DNA from: Methanobacteriota archaeon
Lineage (GTDB): Archaea; JAADCQ01; Methanopyri; Methanopyrales; Methanopyraceae
Direction: 5' to 3'
NCBI GenBank assembly: GCA_027064305.1
Contig: JAMOPY010000040.1
Span: forward strand, 1-56,564
DNA: 56,564 bases
Each line of letters opens with the position of its first letter. Position 1 is the first letter of the stretch. A model generated the notes under the pieces. It was not told where the DNA came from. It did not search any database and saw only the letters and a list, made by a program, of their open reading frames with translations. Both the position numbers and the translations under genes were made by a program. Positions 11,209-30,099 of this stretch are shown here, one piece after another.

Positions 11209-12724
<1,516 letters not shown>

Positions 12725-12739
12725 AGCGGAGGGGATGAT

Positions 12740-18740: not shown

Positions 18741-18870
18741 GACGGCGGCGGCATCCCGGGCTTCCCGCGCCCTCTCGGAGCGCAGTACCACCCGGGACGC
18801 GGCCGGGCTTAACTTCCGGGTTCGAGATGTGGCCCGGGTGTGGCCCCGGCCGCTGTGGCCGCCGCCGTCC
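18741..18870 (-). rRNA. 5S ribosomal RNA, isolated
   Basis: On the minus strand, helix I is formed by GACGGCGGCGG at the 5' end and CCGCCGCCGTC at the 3' end. Between them lie the 5S hallmarks: GGCCACAGCGGCC, CACACCCGGGCCACATC, TCGAACCCGGAAGTTAAGCC (loop B/C region) and GGGTGGTACTGC before GGGAAGCCCGGGATGCC. About 130 nt; ends are set from helix I and could shift by 1-3 bases. A BRE/TATA (GAAAACTATAAG) is centred 26 bases upstream. No 23S or 16S gene adjoins it: neighbours are tatD (upstream) and a small membrane protein (downstream). Confidence 0.93.
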
Positions 18871-22288: not shown

Positions 22289-22360
22289 CCGTTCCATCCT
22301 GGTCGAACGCGATCCACGCTTAACCGGAGCGCGCGATGCACCGTGCGGGGTGCCCAACTC

Positions 22361-22702
22361 ATGTCCAGGCAGCCCGGAGAACCCGCCCGGGACGAGGAGG
22401 AGAAGGGCCTCATCGCCGTGAAGTACGCCCGGGAGATGCTGGGTGACGAGTACGCGGACCTCGTGGAGAAGATGCACGAGCTCGTCTGGAAGGAGTCCCC
22501 CTTGGACCCCAAGACGACGCACCTGATCGCGCTCGCCCTGGCCGCGGCGTCCGGGGACGACCGTCGGGTGGAGCTGATCGCCGAGACGGCCAAGAACGTC
22601 GCGGACGTGACGGACGAGGAGATCGCCGCCACGCTGGCCCTCGTGGCGTGGGTGGAGGGCGTGTCCAAGTCGACTAGGGCCTGGGGCGTTCTTCGTCGCT
22701 AG
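22361..22702 (+). CDS. Carboxymuconolactone decarboxylase (CMD/AhpD) family protein
   Basis: ~113 aa with the helical CMD core: VKYAREMLGDEYADLVEKMHELVWKES, LDPKTTHLIALALAAASGDDRRVELIAETAKN, TDEEIAATLALVAWVEGVS. The AhpD-type CxxC redox pair is absent, since the family position reads ASGDDR. It is therefore not a typical alkylhydroperoxidase and its reaction is unknown. ATG 22361 has GGGGTG upstream; GTG/ATG codons to 22343 are possible. Its last 29 bases overlap the 3' end of the convergent msvR-like gene. A redox-regulator neighbour hints at a stress role. Confidence 0.72.
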   Translation: MSRQPGEPARDEEEKGLIAVKYAREMLGDEYADLVEKMHELVWKESPLDPKTTHLIALALAAASGDDRRVELIAETAKNVADVTDEEIAATLALVAWVEGVSKSTRAWGVLRR

Positions 22703-23411
22703 CGGGCTCCGCCACGAACACGCATCGGCCCGCCCCCTCACCGCAGCACTCCACCTCCCGGGCCCGGTACCGCCTGCCCCGGAGCTCCGACAGGAACCCG
22801 GCGATGATCCCGGCCTCCAGGGGACACGCGGGACCGTACGGCAGGTCCGAGCACTCGCGGCACCCCTCGATCTCCACGATCACTCGGTCTCCGTCCCTCC
22901 GCACCCTCACGTCGTCCGCTATGGGGCTCAGGTACTCCTCCAGCCTACCCTCGTCCCCGCCCTTCCGAGCCAGCCGGCGGCCGATCTCCCTCCCGATCTC
23001 GTACAGGACCTCCTGAGCGTCGATCCCCAGCGACTCGATCACCGACCGGTAGGCGGCCGAGATCGCGAGCAGGATCGAGGTCCTCGGGTCCCTCCCCCGC
23101 TCCAACGCCCTGGCCACGTACTTCACGGCGTCATCCAGCCGGGGACCCGACACGGTGACCGGGCGACCTGCCAACCCGTAGTAGCGTCGCGGCCTCGGCA
23201 CGCCCCGCTCCTCCCGCACGACGCGGACCAGCCCGGCCCGCTCCAGCTCCTTCAGGTGGTGGTGCACCGTCGACTTGGACATGCCCAGCTCCCGGGCCAG
23301 GTCGGACAGCGTCATCGGTCCACGCTCTCGGAGCAGCTCCAGGATCCGGCGCCGAGACTCGCTGTTCAAGGCCCGGGCCATATCTTCTGGAACGTTAACT
23401 AAAAGCCTCAT
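22674..23411 (-). CDS. MsvR-like ArsR-type regulator with V4R sensor domain
   Basis: 245 aa. The N-terminal winged helix resembles ArsR (residues ~10-85: ALNSESRRRILELLRERG, TLSDLARELGMSKSTVHHHLKELERAGLV). The C-terminal V4R domain carries Cys-rich GCRECSDLPYGPACPLEAG and CCGEGAGRCVF. This architecture is that of MsvR, the methanogen-specific V4R redox regulator. ATG 23411 follows GGGGGT; the frame extends to 23468 without support. A probable TATA (CAAATTAGA, minus) lies at 23469-23478. Likely senses redox state through the cysteines; candidate targets are the TTCGA-N6-TCGAA sites at cooS and rubrerythrin (inference). Confidence 0.85.
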   Translation of the reverse strand: MRLLVNVPEDMARALNSESRRRILELLRERGPMTLSDLARELGMSKSTVHHHLKELERAGLVRVVREERGVPRPRRYYGLAGRPVTVSGPRLDDAVKYVARALERGRDPRTSILLAISAAYRSVIESLGIDAQEVLYEIGREIGRRLARKGGDEGRLEEYLSPIADDVRVRRDGDRVIVEIEGCRECSDLPYGPACPLEAGIIAGFLSELRGRRYRAREVECCGEGAGRCVFVAEPASDEERPRP

Positions 23412-23515
23412 GCTGAGACCCCCCGCTGGGCCGTCCCGCTCCCGGGATCGCCGGTGTTCGATGCTCATCTAATTTGCCCGGTTGGGTGCCCGGGTGAGTT
23501 GGGGAGGAGGGGGCG

Positions 23516-23977
23516 TTACCCCTCCTCCCGAATGATGACCCGGCAGTGGCTGCGCTCTATGGGATCATGCTCCAGCTTCACGTCGTCCCGACCCATCGCC
23601 CTGAGCACTTCCTCCATGGTCGTCACGAACGGGCACACGTTGTACCCGAACACCGCCTCGCGCAGCTTCGGATGCCGCTCCACGAACTCCTCCACCAGGT
23701 CCCGGGTGCAGATCTTGCAACCCTTGATCTCCACCACCGTCCCCGAGTCCTCCTCGGTCACCTCGGGGTCCGCGCCCAGCAGGCTCTCCGCGGCCTCCCG
23801 AATCAGGTCGACGGGGTCGTACTCCTCCATCTCCCGATGCTCCCGAAGCAGGGCCCGGGCGGCGTTGCGGCACACGGACCGCCTCAGGGCCGGGGCCCGG
23901 TTACCCAGCAGCTCCGCGGAGGTCACCACGTACGAGTACATGAACGCGCGCAGGAAGTCCCGGGGACCGATCTCCAT
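23516..23977 (-). CDS. V4R-like cysteine protein without DNA-binding domain
   Basis: ~153 aa. The N-terminal helical part (IGPRDFLRAFMYSYVVTSAELLG) is followed by VVEIKGCKICTRDLVEEFV, FGYNVCPFVTTMEEVL and IERSHCRVII. The spacing GCxxC...CPF...HC parallels the V4R domain of the upstream regulator. It may be a small-molecule or redox sensor or a sequestering partner. ATG 23977 fits; the frame extends to 24064 through a non-conserved stretch. It is downstream of the FrhB-like gene on the same strand but has an A+T-rich element (CATTTTTTTACC, minus, ~24013-24024), so it may be separately transcribed. Confidence 0.6.
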   Translation of the reverse strand: MEIGPRDFLRAFMYSYVVTSAELLGNRAPALRRSVCRNAARALLREHREMEEYDPVDLIREAAESLLGADPEVTEEDSGTVVEIKGCKICTRDLVEEFVERHPKLREAVFGYNVCPFVTTMEEVLRAMGRDDVKLEHDPIERSHCRVIIREEG

Positions 23978-24024
23978 CCCGACTTCCCCTGCGGGGGAAC
24001 GGGGCCGGGTGGTAAAAAAATGGA

Positions 24025-24936
24025 TCACGGGCCCGAGGGGTGGTAGGGGCGCCACGTCGCGCACCGGGAGTCGCGCACCCGCTCCCGCTTGTCCCGGGCC
24101 AGCCGCTCCAGCACCTTCGGATCGCCCTCACTCACCTCCCGGGTCTCCAGCCTCCCGGCGTCCACGGCGGACTGCAGGATCTCCTCGCCCCGGTCGGTGC
24201 GCGTCAGCACGACGTTCCAACCGTCCGGGGCGCCCGTGGATCCGACGCTCACGTCCGCGTCCTCGGCCGTCAGGTCGGCGCAGAAGTGGCACGCCTCGTT
24301 AGCGTACCGGCTCAGCCGCGAGACGGGCACCGTCCGCTCCTCGCCGTCCTCGGTGACCACGGTGAACTTGCCCGCCGTGATGTCCATGCGTTCCACCCGT
24401 GAGGGGTCGACCCCGAGCTCCTCGCGCAGCAGGCGTTGCAGGTTCTCGTACTCCAGGTTCTCGGAGCAGAAGATGCCCACGAGCAGTCGAACGCGCTCCG
24501 CGACGTCGGCCACCCCGTGCGCGTACCGCTCCGCCTTCCGCACGGCGGTGACCTGGCACGGCGTGCCGACCAGGGCGACGGACTCGTGGGCGCTCACGGC
24601 CTCCTCGAGCAGGCTCACGTTCGGTGAGATGGCGTACTTCGAGCCCGCCGCCTCGAGCAGCTCCTCCGGGCTCGTGACGACGGTGGGCTCGGGCTTCCAC
24701 GGGTCGGACCCGGTCGTCGCCACGATCGCGGCCTCGACGAGCCCCTCCTCGAGCGCGTGGGTGAGGAGGGCGGTGGTGACTCCGCCGTCCTGGCCGGCCT
24801 CGCGGACGCGCTCGTCCGTGGCCCGGGCCAGGTACGCGCTCCGGTACGGTCCCACGAGCTCGGGGTCGAGCTCCTCACCGCCGTCGCGCCGGCTCCTGCC
24901 GAGTACCTTCCGCAGCAGACCGCGCACGGGTTTCAC
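24025..24936 (-). CDS. FrhB-like F420-binding iron-sulfur flavoprotein
   Basis: 303 aa. FrhB-type subunits bind FAD, an Fe-S cluster and F420 and carry out hydride transfer to F420. Landmarks are GQDGGVTTALLTHALEEGLVE near residue 47, LVGTPCQVTAVRKAERYA, GIFCSENLEY, the Lys-containing DITAGKFTV, and ANEACHFCADLTAEDADVSVGSTGAPDGW. GTG 24936 is the start. Last gene of the cooS-frhA-frhG-frhB-like operon; it identifies F420 as the probable electron acceptor of the complex. Confidence 0.88.
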   Translation of the reverse strand: MKPVRGLLRKVLGRSRRDGGEELDPELVGPYRSAYLARATDERVREAGQDGGVTTALLTHALEEGLVEAAIVATTGSDPWKPEPTVVTSPEELLEAAGSKYAISPNVSLLEEAVSAHESVALVGTPCQVTAVRKAERYAHGVADVAERVRLLVGIFCSENLEYENLQRLLREELGVDPSRVERMDITAGKFTVVTEDGEERTVPVSRLSRYANEACHFCADLTAEDADVSVGSTGAPDGWNVVLTRTDRGEEILQSAVDAGRLETREVSEGDPKVLERLARDKRERVRDSRCATWRPYHPSGP

Positions 24937-24943
24937 CCCCCGG

Positions 24944-25660
24944 CTACGGCCGGAACGATCTCGGACAGACGACGAAGCACGTGCCGCATCGAATGCATCG
25001 TTCCTGACGGACCTCGGGCTTCTCGTCGAGCTCGATGGCCCGCGCCGGGCACGCGGCGGCGCACGTGCCGCAGCCCACGCAGAACAGGTCCCTCTCGATG
25101 ACGTCCAGGTCGCAGCCCAGGCACAGGTCCTTGTTGGACGTCAGCAGGACGTCCTCCACCTCCAGCTCCGGGCCGCGGACGGGCGCGGGCAGGTCCGGGG
25201 CCAGCCCGTGGAAGTCCCCGGACAGGACCCGGTACGGCTCGAGTCGGTCCTCGTCGCCCTCCTCCAGCGCCCGGAGGAAGGCGGCGATGGCGTCCTCGGT
25301 GGGCGGGCAGCCCGGGATCGCGTAGTCCGTGCCGGCGAACTTGGCGGCCGGGAACACCGTGAAGTGGTACCGGGCGGGCTCCCGCATGCCGATCGCGTGC
25401 CGGGCGAAGCCCCCGGTGGCGGCGCAGGAGCCCAGCGTCACGACCGTGTCGGCCGAGGTCACCGCCCGCTCGAGCCGCTCCTGGGCCTCCGCGTCCTCGA
25501 AGTCCACGGCGCCCTCCACGAACAGGACGTCCACGTCGGGCACTTCCCCGTCGTCCGTCAGGCTCGACCAGGCCAGCTCGTGACCCGTCCTCCGGCAGGC
25601 GAGCTCCAGGTTCTCCGCGCAGGACCCGCAGGACATGAGGGAGAGCAGGGCCACCCTCAC
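24944..25660 (-). CDS. FrhG-like small subunit with two ferredoxin-type clusters
   Basis: 238 aa. The N-terminal half is a NiFe-hydrogenase small-subunit domain: SLMSCGSCAENLELA, VTLGSCAATGGFARHA and IPGCPPTEDAI supply the proximal-cluster cysteines. The C-terminal half carries CLGCDLDVI and two ferredoxin motifs, CVGCGTCAAACP and CIRCGTCFVVCP, enough for two [4Fe-4S] clusters. So the wire between the large subunit and FrhB is intact. GTG 25660. It lies between the FrhA-like and FrhB-like genes, spaced by 7-12 bases. Confidence 0.9.
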   Translation of the reverse strand: MRVALLSLMSCGSCAENLELACRRTGHELAWSSLTDDGEVPDVDVLFVEGAVDFEDAEAQERLERAVTSADTVVTLGSCAATGGFARHAIGMREPARYHFTVFPAAKFAGTDYAIPGCPPTEDAIAAFLRALEEGDEDRLEPYRVLSGDFHGLAPDLPAPVRGPELEVEDVLLTSNKDLCLGCDLDVIERDLFCVGCGTCAAACPARAIELDEKPEVRQERCIRCGTCFVVCPRSFRP

Positions 25661-25672
25661 GGTGCGAACCCC

Positions 25673-26770
25673 CTAGTGCGTGAGGCACCGTCCGGACAGT
25701 CCGAGCGGGCGCAGGGCCGTCTCCACCTGCTCGACCTCCAGCCCGGTCAGCAGGTCGCCCGCGAGGGCCACCTTGAAGTTGGAAGGCGTGATCATCTCGG
25801 CCCAGTCCACGCGGCCGTTCCGGAGCCGCAGTCGGACGATCAGGGTCCCCTCAGGGGCCTCCACCGCGGCCGTCCCCTCGCCGGAGCCGGCCTCCGCCTC
25901 GGCGCGGAACTCGCCGGTCGCGTCCAGGCTCGAGGCGGTGTCCGCGATCCGGTCCAGCAGCTCCGTGAGCTCCTCGGCCCGGGCCACGTGGTGGTCGGCT
26001 GGGTGCTCCGCGCCTCCCCGCCGCGCGGCGGGTCCGACCAGCGCGGGCTCGCCGTCGTACCGGGCCACGTGGTTGGTGGCCAGGCTCCTCGTGGTCCTCA
26101 TACGGTAGAACTCCGAGGGGGGTAGGACCTCGATCCTGTCGGGGTCCACCTCGCCCGTGTACGTGTCCGAGACGCTCAGCTCGGTCGGCCGGATCCGGGA
26201 CTCCACGCTCACCTCCTCCCGGAGCTCGTCCGCGGCCGACTCCACCCGGTCCCGGAGCCCCTCCGCCGCCTCGGCCGCGTCCTTGGCCACGCTCTCGAGG
26301 CGCTCCACCGGCAGCCGCTCGAGCTCCAGCCCGCCCACGGTCACGGCCGGCGGGTGGTGGGGCTTGCCGCCCACCATCCTCAGGAGCTCTCGGGCCGCGC
26401 GGACGACCTCGTGGGCCTCCTCCGCCGCGCCCGGGACGGCGGAGGCCAGCGTCCGGGCGTGGGCGCGGACCACGTTGGCCATGTTCAGCAGCTCGCGGGC
26501 CCGCCTCGCGTCGTCCGGCACGCTCACGTTCAGGGCGTCCTCGGCCGCCTCCGCCACGGCCAGTCCGGCGCTGGCGTCGCAGCCGCGGCACACCCGCTCG
26601 GCGGCCACGATGGCGAACTCCACGGGCTTCTCCAGGACCAGCGTCTCCCAGGAGAGGGGGACGGTCGTGGAGCACACCTCGGCGTTCACGATCCGGCCGT
26701 CGGAGACCTCCGCCACGGCCCGCAGCTCGCCCGGCTCCCCGGTTTTGACCGTGAGGGTTTTCACCTCCAT
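25673..26770 (-). CDS. FrhA-like large subunit with an altered Ni-Fe site
   Basis: 365 aa, somewhat shorter than F420-reducing hydrogenase alpha subunits. The N-terminal ligand motif, normally RxCGxCxxxH, reads RVCRGCDAS: both Cys are kept, but Gly and His are lost. The C-terminal motif, normally DPCxxCxxH, reads GLSGRCLTH: the Asp-Pro and the first Cys are gone and Ser takes the Cys position. With a Ni ligand missing it is unlikely to activate H2 and probably works as an electron-transfer scaffold, as NuoD/FpoD do. ATG 26770; the frame further upstream is shadow. It lies directly downstream of the CO dehydrogenase gene. Confidence 0.8.
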   Translation of the reverse strand: MEVKTLTVKTGEPGELRAVAEVSDGRIVNAEVCSTTVPLSWETLVLEKPVEFAIVAAERVCRGCDASAGLAVAEAAEDALNVSVPDDARRARELLNMANVVRAHARTLASAVPGAAEEAHEVVRAARELLRMVGGKPHHPPAVTVGGLELERLPVERLESVAKDAAEAAEGLRDRVESAADELREEVSVESRIRPTELSVSDTYTGEVDPDRIEVLPPSEFYRMRTTRSLATNHVARYDGEPALVGPAARRGGAEHPADHHVARAEELTELLDRIADTASSLDATGEFRAEAEAGSGEGTAAVEAPEGTLIVRLRLRNGRVDWAEMITPSNFKVALAGDLLTGLEVEQVETALRPLGLSGRCLTH

Positions 26771-26805
26771 GCCCACCACCGTCCCGGAAAACGGGTTGGG
26801 AGGAA

Positions 26806-28719
26806 TCAGATACCCAGGCGCTTCCGCTTCTCCTCGATCTTGTCGGCCAGGATCTCGGCGGCCTTCTCCATGTCCGTCTCGATGATCAGCTCGCCTCCGG
26901 TGAGATCCGGCAGGTCCTCGGTCAGCGTCTTCGTGACCACCTCGCTGCCGGTCACGGGCGGGACCGGGCTCACGTGCAGCGTGAGTCCCAGCGCCAGGGC
27001 CGAGGACGCGTCCGCCAGCGCCTGTTCCTCGAGCCACTGCGGCGCGCTCGCGACGGCCGGGACGTCCGGGATGTCGATCTCTTCGCCGGTCTGCTCCCGG
27101 AGGATCTCGGCGATCTCGAAGACCAGGTGCTCGATCTTACCGATCGCGAGGCACGGTCCGTAGTGGAGCACGGGCGGAATGCCCAGGTCCTCGCAGACCT
27201 GTCGGAGGTTCTCACCGGCGAGCTCGGCCGCCTCGGGGTTGAACAGGCCGGCGTTGGCCAGGGCGCCGTTCACGCAGCCGGCGCCGAGGACGAGGATGTC
27301 CCGCTTGATCATCTCCTTGGCCAGCGTGGCGGCCGGCACGTTGTGCCCACCGCTGGCCAGGTTCGTGCAGCCCACGATCGCGCAGACGCCGCGGATGGTG
27401 CCCTCCTGGATCAGCTTGAGCACGTTCTCCCAGCCGACCGCCTCCTCGATGGAGAAGTAGCCGAAGCCCACCACGTTCTCGTGCCGGTGCTCGGGCTCCA
27501 GGATCTTGTCCTCGTGCTTCGAGCGGCGCTCCTTGAACGCCTCGATGGCCCGCCTCACGGCCTCCTCGGCCACCTCCTCCGCGCGCTCCGGGTCCCACAG
27601 GATCAGCTCCGCGCCCCACACCTTGGCCACGTCGTCCACGGCGACCAGCTTGACGTCCAGCTTCTCCCCGTAGAACTTCAGGCCCGGGAACGTGCAGTTG
27701 AACTCGCTCACGATCGCGTCCACGAGGCCCGTCGCGGCCAGGGCCTCCGTCGTGAAGTTGTTGCCCGCGAAGCCCGCGTACGTGTCCGGCAGGTGCTCCG
27801 CGCGCGCCTCGAAGTCGTCACCGACGCACGTCGCCCCGATGATCCGGATCCCCTTGGCCCCGGCCTTCTTGGCCTCCTCCTCCAGCCGCTCGGCGGCGTC
27901 CGTGAGGTACTTCTGCAGGGACATCTGGTGCCCGGTGACCATGATGTTCACGTAGTCCGGGTCCAGGATGCCCGGGCCGCCCTCCGTCTTCGTGATCCGC
28001 GGGCTCCCGAAGAGGATGTCGTTGATCGTTTCCACGCCGAACAGGGAGACCGGGCCCGTGATCAGGCCCAGCCGGAGCACGTGCAGGAGCATGTCCTCCG
28101 GGTCCGAGTTCAGGTTCGTGCTCGTCTTCACCAGCGCGTCGTGAATCTCGGCCTTGGCGCCGCCCGGGATCAGCCCCATCTCCTCGTACATCTCGACCCG
28201 CCAGTCCGGCACGACGGCCTTGAACACCTCCGACTCCTCGTACCGGGGCCGGTAGATGTCCTCCAGGATGAAGTCCGCGATCTCCTCCGCCACGTCCTCG
28301 GGCTTGCCCGAGGCGTCTAGCCCGTACACCTCCGCCGCGTGCCGCAGGGCCTCCTCGTCCGCGACCTCGTACGGGGAGTCCTCGTCCGCCACGGACTTCA
28401 GGGCCCGCGCCGCGTTCTCCAGGCAGTGCACGTAGCACGCGGCGCCCGCGGCCACGTGCCGGAGGAAGTTGCGCGCCACGATCACGTCCGCCGTGGCGCC
28501 GCACACGCCGCGCGGCGTCTTCTCCGTGATCCGACAGGGACCGTTCGAGCAGATGTTGCACCACACGCCCTGCTTACCGTACGGGCACTTCGGGAACTGC
28601 ACCGGCCACCGGATGTGCGGGGTCTCGATCTCCGGGATCTCCTCGTTCAGCCGCTTCGCGTGCTCAACCAGCTCGCGGACGACCTCGTCCGTGTACGGGC
28701 ACCGCTCCTCCTCCGACAT
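26806..28719 (-). CDS. Monofunctional Ni-Fe CO dehydrogenase catalytic subunit (CooS-like)
   Basis: 637 aa, standard CooS length. It oxidises CO to CO2 at a Ni-Fe-S C-cluster. Candidate ligands and landmarks are VHCLENAARA (His), EFNCTFPG, VGCTNLASGGHN, LGAGCVNGALANAGLF and VLHYGPCLAIGK. The N-terminal B-cluster motif is WCNICSNGPCR. The family's adjacent D-cluster cysteine (GVCCR...) is replaced by Trp, leaving one D-cluster Cys (KCPYG). ATG 28719 has GGGGGAT upstream; the frame to 28797 runs through the promoter. First gene of an operon with FrhA/G/B-like subunits; no CdhB-E genes nearby, so it is not part of an ACDS complex here. Confidence 0.92.
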   Translation of the reverse strand: MSEEERCPYTDEVVRELVEHAKRLNEEIPEIETPHIRWPVQFPKCPYGKQGVWCNICSNGPCRITEKTPRGVCGATADVIVARNFLRHVAAGAACYVHCLENAARALKSVADEDSPYEVADEEALRHAAEVYGLDASGKPEDVAEEIADFILEDIYRPRYEESEVFKAVVPDWRVEMYEEMGLIPGGAKAEIHDALVKTSTNLNSDPEDMLLHVLRLGLITGPVSLFGVETINDILFGSPRITKTEGGPGILDPDYVNIMVTGHQMSLQKYLTDAAERLEEEAKKAGAKGIRIIGATCVGDDFEARAEHLPDTYAGFAGNNFTTEALAATGLVDAIVSEFNCTFPGLKFYGEKLDVKLVAVDDVAKVWGAELILWDPERAEEVAEEAVRRAIEAFKERRSKHEDKILEPEHRHENVVGFGYFSIEEAVGWENVLKLIQEGTIRGVCAIVGCTNLASGGHNVPAATLAKEMIKRDILVLGAGCVNGALANAGLFNPEAAELAGENLRQVCEDLGIPPVLHYGPCLAIGKIEHLVFEIAEILREQTGEEIDIPDVPAVASAPQWLEEQALADASSALALGLTLHVSPVPPVTGSEVVTKTLTEDLPDLTGGELIIETDMEKAAEILADKIEEKRKRLGI

Positions 28720-28745
28720 GGAGATCCCCCGAGGCTCGGGGTATG

Positions 28746-28801
28746 TTCGACCCGTATCGAACAGGGGGCCCGCCAATATAAATTTTTCGAACACCATCGA
28801 A
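28746..28801 (-). promoter_or_regulatory. cooS operon promoter with two TTCGA-N6-TCGAA operators
   Basis: The minus-strand TATA region reads AAATTTATATTGG (28773-28785). Operator-like inverted repeats TTCGA-N6-TCGAA lie on both sides: 28786-28801 abutting the BRE side and 28746-28761 at the predicted transcription start (~28753). That arrangement suggests repression by blocking TBP/TFB and the start site. The same 16-bp repeat occurs upstream of rubrerythrin. Confidence 0.7.
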
Positions 28802-28846: not shown

Positions 28847-29617
28847 TTACTTATCGGTCGCGGTCCGGCCCTCACCGAGCGCCCGCTCCAGCGCCCGGAG
28901 CGCCGCCCGGATGTGCAGCCGGGCCCCCACGTGCAGCGGGGTGTCACCCAGCCTCTCGTCCACCTCCATCGACGCCGTGCACGGGAAGGAGTGATGCGCC
29001 TCGAACGCCGCCTCCCTCACCGCCTCCGGCTCCGCGTCCACGCCCACCAGCCTCCGGGCCACGAACCACGTGCACCCGCACGGGGCCGACCGGATCACGC
29101 CGGCCCCCACCACGACCCCGCCCTCCACCCTCAGGGACAGTCGAGGGCGCCCGATCCGCCCCCTCTCGCAGAACCGCTCGGTCACGGGGCCGGGCGGCTC
29201 CAGGTCGCACCCCGGTCGGGCGATGGTGAGCTCCACCCCGGCCCCCTCGCAGGCCTCCCTCAGCCGATCCTCCGTCCACGGGTCGATCCAGTCGGGCGCC
29301 TCGACGGGAACGATCAGGGCCCGGATCTCGTACCGCTCCGGCAGCTCCATCAGCAGGTCGGGGTGCAGCCGGACCGCCAGCAGCACGTCGACCCGGGGCA
29401 GCTCGGGCAGGTACTCGTCCGGATCCTCGAGCATCTCGGGCAGCTCTTCGGGCCCGGGGAGCCGCTCCGCGGTGACCAGGTCGTCGAGCAGGGAGTACTC
29501 CCCGTACTTGCACCCGTCGCACGCGGATCCGCAGGCGCGGCAGTGACCGGGCTCGTTCACCAGGTTGGAGATCACCCTCTCCCCGAACGGGTGGGAGTAG
29601 AGGACGGCGAAGCGCAC
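28847..29617 (-). CDS. DUF166 family protein
   Basis: ~256 aa. Starts VRFAVLYSHPFGERV; contains CRACGSACDGCKYGEYSLL near residue 27 (four Cys), DLEPPGPVTERFCERGRIGRP, RSAPCGCTWFVARRLVG and AHHSFPCTASMEVD. DUF166 proteins occur in methanogens and have sometimes been called thymidylate synthase-like without good support; the Cys clusters suggest metal or Fe-S binding. GTG 29617 is preferred because GGGGTGA lies five bases upstream; longer starts to 29683 would run into the palindrome. Confidence 0.72.
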   Translation of the reverse strand: MRFAVLYSHPFGERVISNLVNEPGHCRACGSACDGCKYGEYSLLDDLVTAERLPGPEELPEMLEDPDEYLPELPRVDVLLAVRLHPDLLMELPERYEIRALIVPVEAPDWIDPWTEDRLREACEGAGVELTIARPGCDLEPPGPVTERFCERGRIGRPRLSLRVEGGVVVGAGVIRSAPCGCTWFVARRLVGVDAEPEAVREAAFEAHHSFPCTASMEVDERLGDTPLHVGARLHIRAALRALERALGEGRTATDK

Positions 29618-29666
29618 CCCTCTCACCCCGGGGTTCGGCCTCACGATCCTTCCGCCGCCCCGGATT

Positions 29667-29689
29667 ATCGTTTTGATAATCATAACGAT
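29667..29689 (-). terminator. Palindromic element, ATCGTTACGA family (copy 6)
   Basis: ATCGTTTTGAT, A, ATCATAACGAT: stem of 11 with one T-T mismatch. It lies 24 bases after the rubrerythrin stop (minus strand) and ~50 bases before the DUF166 start. Confidence 0.65.
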
Positions 29690-29712: not shown

Positions 29713-30099
29713 CTACTCCTTCAGCCGCTCCAGGGCCGCCTCCAGCATCTTCTTGTGGTGCTTCTCGTCGTAGGCCGTGGCCTTCAGGATGGTGATCACC
29801 TCGTCGTCCAGCTCGTCGGAGTGGTGGTCCGCCTCGTCCATCCTCGTCTCGTGGGCGTTCTGCTCGCCCTCGATCATCTCCTCCATCTTCTCGATCAGCC
29901 CGTCCAGGCTGTTCTCCACCTTACCGGCGATCAGCGCCGCGGCGGCCGCGTGCCGGGCCTCGTCCATGGCGATCTGCTCCAGTAGGTCGGCCACGTCCGG
30001 GTAGCCCTGCTCCCGCGCGACGATGGCCATGGCCATGTAGATGCCCACCTCGGTGGTCTCACCCTTGAACCACTCCTCCAGGTACTTCTCGAACTCCAT
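29713..30099 (-). CDS. Rubrerythrin-like diiron protein, ferritin-like domain only
   Basis: 128 aa. Four-helix bundle with the diiron ligands: GETTEVGIYMAMA (Glu), DEARHAAAAALIAG (ExxRH), the Glu in MIEGEQNAHE, and AYDEKHHKKMLE (ExxH). The C-terminal rubredoxin domain of classical rubrerythrin is absent, so electrons must come from a separate rubredoxin. Probably reduces peroxide. ATG 30099. The promoter carries the same operator as the CO dehydrogenase operon. Confidence 0.92.
   Translation of the reverse strand: MEFEKYLEEWFKGETTEVGIYMAMAIVAREQGYPDVADLLEQIAMDEARHAAAAALIAGKVENSLDGLIEKMEEMIEGEQNAHETRMDEADHHSDELDDEVITILKATAYDEKHHKKMLEAALERLKE

Follow-up and report, generated by a model that had tools for sequence, protein, structure and literature searches.

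We analysed a 56,564-nucleotide contig (JAMOPY010000040.1, assembly GCA_027064305.1; the whole stretch is referred to below as the window) from a Methanopyrus-type archaeon, whose genome comprises 1.21 Mb in 50 contigs and is 89% complete. Its minus strand carries four genes in the order cooS-frhA'-frhG'-frhB', encoding a nickel carbon monoxide dehydrogenase (CODH) and relatives of the three subunits of F420-reducing hydrogenase (Table 1). In the open reading frame (ORF) calls the genes are separated by gaps of 35, 12 and 7 bases, and the frhB' stop is followed by a run of seven T. ORF coordinates and family profile matches thus bear out the tight one-strand cluster, spaced by 7–35 bases, that an original prediction made from the letters had described. 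In the profile searches FrhG' reached 146 bits against an FrhG equivalog cut-off of 245.5 and FrhA' 114 bits against an FrhA cut-off of 392.5, so that both are divergent members of their families.

We compared the locus with five Methanopyrus genomes and 36 Methanococci-type genomes (G-numbers are the genome labels of this comparison set). All five Methanopyrus genomes carry FrhA' with an identical operon order. We read this order in Methanocaldococcus-type genomes as well, among them G103, which we take to be Methanocaldococcus jannaschii; contigs of G107 and G110 stop short of the last operon genes. The search for the gene order elsewhere that had been suggested along with the original prediction therefore found it in two lineages of heat-loving deep-sea methanogens, and this fixed order rules out a chance arrangement. 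Operon-type CooS (~58% identity) is present in 12 of the 36 Methanococci-type genomes, and these same 12 have FrhA' with E < 1e-100. Just one further clear FrhA' (E < 1e-60) among the 36 comes from G102, presumably Methanocaldococcus infernus, where it is fused to the N-terminal, proximal-cluster part of FrhG' (L120 9309-10496). No ferredoxin domain, FrhB' or CooS was found near this fusion, and no CooS in G102 at the threshold used. In trees, which contain long branches, each of FrhA', FrhG' and FrhB' united the two lineages in one group apart from canonical Frh, with 98–100% support. A single clade for Frh-linked CooS is compatible with the data (p-AU 0.24), though the tree does not establish one. 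Ratios of nonsynonymous to synonymous substitution rates (dN/dS) were 0.04–0.16 for CooS, 0.21–0.43 for FrhA', 0.10–0.25 for FrhG' and 0.13–0.39 for FrhB', indicating that the operon genes are maintained by purifying selection; values below 0.45 together with preserved gene lengths rule out pseudogene decay.

FrhA' of the window keeps the metal cysteines C61, C64 and C362, with Ser359 at the fourth (selenocysteine/Cys, L2) position and Ala68 replacing the L1-motif His. Its C-terminus is exactly ..CLTH, without the maturation-protease extension, and the gap between frhA' and frhG' leaves no space for frhD. Unlike FrhA', canonical FrhA runs beyond CATH/CAAH; such an FrhA, intact and selenocysteine-bearing (RICGIC..H, then DIUASCAAH and an extension), is encoded elsewhere in the same genome. 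In Methanocaldococcus FrhA' the second L1 Cys is Asn or Thr and the remaining three Cys are kept. The full set of four Cys or selenocysteine residues is missing in all 17 FrhA' relatives read, which agrees with the earlier statement that the system works without hydrogen. The predicted loss of Ni ligands is real, although narrower than had been stated, as three of the four metal Cys remain. Judged from these residues, FrhA' is predicted to be unable to hold a normal Ni-Fe centre, and the complex is on this basis not a hydrogenase. It is a matter of speculation whether the three leftover Cys of each lineage form another metal site; an AlphaFold model of FrhA' built from two sequences had a mean pLDDT of 47 and was discarded, no convergence of C61, C64 and C362 being readable from it.

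The residues for electron transfer are preserved in the other two hydrogenase-like subunits, as originally predicted for the cluster cysteines of FrhG and the F420-module motifs of FrhB. FrhG' keeps 12 of 12 cluster Cys (C11, C14, C79 and C118 plus eight in the ferredoxin domain within 194–232) and FrhB' four of four (C127, C157, C216 and C219), and these are intact in both lineages. FrhB' has no ferredoxin domain; it appears to retain the FAD/F420 module and is predicted to bind F420. A C-terminal cysteine of FrhB', C292, is common to both lineages and is Lys in canonical FrhB; it is a possible contact or extra ligand.

CooS has all C-cluster ligands (H264, C298, C342, C451, C482 and C523), which are intact in 17 of 17 operon CooS. 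Equally constant is the exchange of the acid-base His/Lys for Tyr96/Gln566 (17/17). In the D-cluster C45 is kept and the second Cys is Trp53 (Tyr in Methanocaldococcus). CooS therefore combines the three features of structural group C-3, namely a C-cluster of His and five Cys, the Tyr/Gln exchange and a single D-cluster Cys; the group was defined in the motif table of Inoue et al. 2019 and reported there from Methanocaldococcus and Methanotorris. Since C298, the equivalent of Cys295, is kept, the cluster is predicted to be of the Ni-Fe-S and not of the hybrid type, and the hybrid-cluster CooS-V type, with Glu at this position, is ruled out. Loss of the acid-base and D-cluster residues makes fast CO oxidation doubtful. 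CO activity of clade C CODHs is in general considered low or uncertain, and Bohm and Land have proposed regulatory or redox-modulatory roles for them. A purified clade C CooS had CO:ferredoxin activity 15x below that of the CODH/acetyl-CoA synthase of the same organism, and 231x below with methyl viologen (PMC8683389).

Two clade relatives occur without Frh genes. In G011 (L064 4532-9771) a DUF166 gene and a clade C-type cooS are followed by two genes of the cytochrome bd oxidase subunit I family; in G207 (L121 7006-10276) the cooS, again clade C-type, directly follows hdrC-hdrB-like genes and its product shows the same exchange to Tyr and Gln. Both CooS keep both D-cluster Cys. Loss of the D-cluster thus accompanies Frh-type partners, a pattern that fits a rerouted electron exit; since it was probably lost in one event, the association is weak as statistics. 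The cytochrome bd neighbours in G011 hint that this CODH group is connected with oxygen or redox processes.

The cooS promoter contains a TATA-like element TTTATATT ~60 bases before the gene, with an operator-like site on either side, and the same site recurs at the promoter of a rubrerythrin-family gene (Table 1). Its core is the published MsvR motif, TTCGN7-9CGAA. The form TTCGN8CGAA occurs three times in the window against 0.66 expected, twice at the cooS and once at the rubrerythrin promoter. Across the five Methanopyrus genomes it is perfect at every rubrerythrin promoter and at two of the cooS promoters, the others having one mismatch. By itself TTCGN8CGAA is unspecific: nearly all inspected sites in G000 and in G001, which we take to be Methanopyrus kandleri AV19, lie inside ORFs. 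We therefore also counted an extended pattern, TTCGATN5TCGAAAA with at most one mismatch; it was chosen after the sites at the locus had been viewed in all five genomes, so that the counts are not blind. Searched through the entire 1.2 Mb genome, it gave three matches, each of them at the cooS or the rubrerythrin promoter; both matches in G004 are likewise at these promoters. In all five genomes together, 12 of 15 matches fall within this ~10 kb locus, and a reversed control pattern gave 0; two of the 12 (G001, G002) are internal to DUF166 and perhaps incidental. Elsewhere in each Methanopyrus genome the extended pattern is nearly absent. The core motif was not visible at Methanocaldococcus cooS promoters, and MsvR-type control is accordingly claimed for Methanopyrus only.

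In Methanocaldococcus the operon is often found among genes for rubrerythrin, FprA, archaeoflavoprotein, a NikR-like protein and hybrid cluster protein. The promoter sites suggest that the operon would be switched on together with oxygen-stress genes, not for ordinary CO metabolism. The original prediction had the electrons feed mer. A Mer-like gene is indeed present in the window (~38.9–40.0 kb, luciferase-family match), but it is 14 kb from frhB' with many genes between and does not belong to the operon. Promoter sites and neighbours (rubrerythrin, AhpD/CMD and the MsvR-like regulator here, FprA and hybrid cluster protein in Methanocaldococcus) point to redox stress instead.

Table 1. Genes and promoter sites of the cooS-frhA'-frhG'-frhB' locus (positions in the window).
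Feature	Position	Strand	Remarks
CMD/AhpD-family gene	22343-22702	plus	weaker copy of the operator-like site just upstream, 22291-22308
HTH + V4R regulator, MsvR-like	22674-23468	minus	downstream of the operon; 102 bits, below the MsvR equivalog cut-off of 220
Small Cys-containing protein	23516-24064	minus	adjoins frhB' downstream; start codon uncertain; kept in all Methanopyrus
frhB'	24936-24025	minus	303 amino acids; FAD/F420 module; PRK09325 334 bits, cut-off 269
frhG'	25660-24944	minus	238 amino acids; small subunit, every cluster Cys kept
frhA'	26770-25673	minus	365 amino acids; relative of the NiFe-hydrogenase large subunit without usable Ni-Fe site
cooS	28719-26806	minus	637 amino acids; Ni-CODH, clade C-3; CO_DH_cata 732 bits, cut-off 478
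Second operator-like site TTCGATACGGGTCGAACA	28744-28761	minus	downstream of the cooS TATA-like element
Operator-like site TTCGATGGTGTTCGAAAA	28784-28801	minus	upstream; directly next to the cooS TATA-like element TTTATATT
DUF166 gene	28847-29683	minus	upstream of cooS
Rubrerythrin-family gene	29713-30099	minus	PF02915; shares promoter site with cooS
Same operator-like site TTCGATCAAATTCGAAAA	30146-30163	minus	rubrerythrin promoter

The small protein downstream of frhB' matched no Pfam or NCBIfam family; by eye it has a V4R-like appearance. We know of no function for DUF166. A DUF166 gene is also found near clade C-3 cooS at four Methanocaldococcus loci, and in G011 one immediately precedes the related cooS. 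Several genomes of Methanopyrus and Methanocaldococcus have a TatD-like and a DUF166 gene in the vicinity of the operon. Further away, the window holds an archaeal 16S rRNA gene (11209-12725, plus strand) and a 5S rRNA gene (18743-18866, minus strand), while no 23S match is listed for it; the arrangement looks like one of unlinked rRNA genes or of a rearranged region.

We propose that the operon encodes a low-turnover, redox-stress-regulated CO:F420 oxidoreductase that uses a hydrogenase-derived relay, an assignment that we consider about equally likely to prove right or wrong. The four products would form one soluble complex in which the clade C-3 CODH swaps electrons with F420. FrhA' would act as a scaffold that has lost H2 activation. 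Electrons leaving CooS, perhaps by way of a metal site formed by the leftover FrhA' Cys, would enter FrhG', cross its three [4Fe-4S] clusters and reach the [4Fe-4S]/FAD/F420 module in FrhB'. The net reaction would be a slow CO + H2O + F420 -> CO2 + F420H2. Induction, presumably through the MsvR-like regulator, would belong to a redox-stress response in which F420H2 or the removal of CO protects the cell alongside rubrerythrin. Electron transfer from CO (-520 mV) to F420 is downhill, whereas the reverse is not; together with the intact C-cluster ligands this makes CO to F420 under redox stress the best single reading. Of the route originally predicted, from CO through an Frh-like scaffold to F420 without H2, the intact wiring and the lost hydrogenase site stand, while efficient CO oxidation cannot be assumed given Tyr96, Gln566 and Trp53.

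Several points weigh against this proposal. With both acid-base residues gone, CooS may turn over CO very slowly or not at all, and the incomplete D-cluster would put the usual electron exit from CooS in question. Control by the MsvR-like protein is deduced from the motif, and in Methanosarcina acetivorans the motif by itself was insufficient for MsvR binding. The G102 fusion shows that the Frh part can persist without a CODH. Finally, a stress regulon fits a reductase driven by F420H2 equally well.

Such a reductase would be the same complex running in reverse, with F420H2 passing electrons via FrhB' and FrhG' to the CODH-type cluster, where NO, hydroxylamine, peroxide or O2 would be reduced. 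We regard this as possible but less than likely. The promoter site common to cooS and rubrerythrin speaks for it, as do the Methanocaldococcus neighbours rubrerythrin, the F420H2-oxidase-like FprA and hybrid cluster protein, the cytochrome bd oxidase genes beside the related CooS of G011 and the loss of the residues for CO acid-base chemistry; hydroxylamine reduction is, according to the literature, possible on CODH scaffolds. However, every C-cluster ligand including C298 is kept, unlike in CooS-V, predicting a Ni-Fe-S cluster. Nor do we know of such a reductase activity for any clade C CODH. We tentatively entertain, at a similar level, that the operon encodes a new type of stress enzyme, an F420-linked oxidoreductase on a CODH scaffold. 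In it a three-Cys site in place of Ni-Fe would make FrhA' an electron relay that has taken over the exit of the lost D-cluster; the enzyme would serve redox-stress defence and possibly reduce NO, hydroxylamine or O2 with F420H2, not oxidise CO.

The lost catalytic residues of CooS and the nearby regulator gene would also suit a low-turnover sensor or switch for CO or redox conditions, with the Frh-like part setting its redox state from the F420 pool, in line with the proposal of Bohm and Land; yet three extra redox subunits with complete cluster chains exceed the needs of a sensor, and CooS is the slowest-changing subunit, as expected for an active site, so that we consider a sensor improbable. 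We think it just as doubtful that CooS and FrhA'G'B' are separate enzymes, for instance an F420:ferredoxin or thiol redox module and a CooS using another carrier. The G102 fusion and the hdrC-hdrB genes beside the G207 CooS are in keeping with such a separation; against it stand the otherwise strict co-occurrence and fixed order across two distant lineages and a D-cluster loss seen, among the clade relatives, only in Frh-linked CooS. For the M. jannaschii operon a true CODH-hydrogenase that makes H2 from CO has been suggested in the literature (PMC4652020), and the homology of FrhA' to FrhA speaks for it. The four Ni-Fe Cys are complete in no member read, Methanopyrus FrhA' also lacks the L1 His and the C-terminal extension, and an intact selenocysteine FrhA exists elsewhere in the same genome; this ligand loss contradicts a genuine CO:H2 hydrogenase, which we therefore hold to be highly improbable.

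The statement in the original prediction that no characterised enzyme of such a composition was known to its author overrated the novelty. The association of cooS with F420-hydrogenase genes has been published as a hydrogenase (Diender et al. 2015, PMC4652020), and a 2026 marine CODH survey (PMC13240472) names F420-reducing hydrogenases as the partner, leaves their role unclear and already reports single-Cys D-clusters in clade C archaea. The published clade C cooS clusters show the same association, and in G103 all four genes occur in identical order; literature on the locus numbers MJ0725-MJ0728 was not found. Compared with these clusters, the present analysis recognises the loss of the Ni-Fe site, adds Methanopyrus and identifies a stress-type promoter site. 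CO-dependent F420 reduction has been measured for the CODH alpha-epsilon-zeta complex of Candidatus Ethanoperedens thermophilum, for which a crystal structure is available (PMC11493965). There a CODH is likewise coupled to an FrhB-type F420 reductase, but the core is CdhA-type, a ferredoxin domain is fused to the reductase, FrhA- and FrhG-like subunits are absent and the role is catabolic; our operon has a CooS-type core and an FrhB' without such a domain. Frh [NiFe]-hydrogenase (4omf, 3zfs) shares the FrhA/G/B homologues, the complete cluster chain and the FAD/F420 module, whereas the operon lacks the Ni-Fe site, the maturation extension and room for frhD, and has CooS added. Closest in principle is Elp, an F420 wiring module with an FdhA-like subunit whose catalytic domain is lost (PMC12350162): a former catalytic subunit without cofactor site remains, and an F420 module is reused as wiring. 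Elp differs in its formate dehydrogenase origin and its coupling to Hdr. CooS-V of Carboxydothermus (PMC9311411) and hybrid cluster proteins have the CODH fold and a possible stress role in common with the operon CooS; CooS-V carries Glu at Cys295, while all C-cluster ligands are kept here. Within the literature searched, four points appear to be new: that every member read has lost the Ni-Fe site, that Methanopyrus carries the operon, that D-cluster loss is linked to Frh-like partners, and that cooS and rubrerythrin share a stress-type promoter site.

In summary, no function has been agreed on for clade C CODHs, and the literature calls their archaeal members hydrogenase-associated. With a dead H2 site, intact F420 wiring and a promoter site shared with rubrerythrin, a concrete function can be put to the test, namely redox-stress chemistry linked to F420 at a CODH cluster; since M. 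jannaschii is cultivable, testing is practical. If true, this would add to Elp a second example of a dead catalytic subunit put to new use as F420 wiring in a methanogen.

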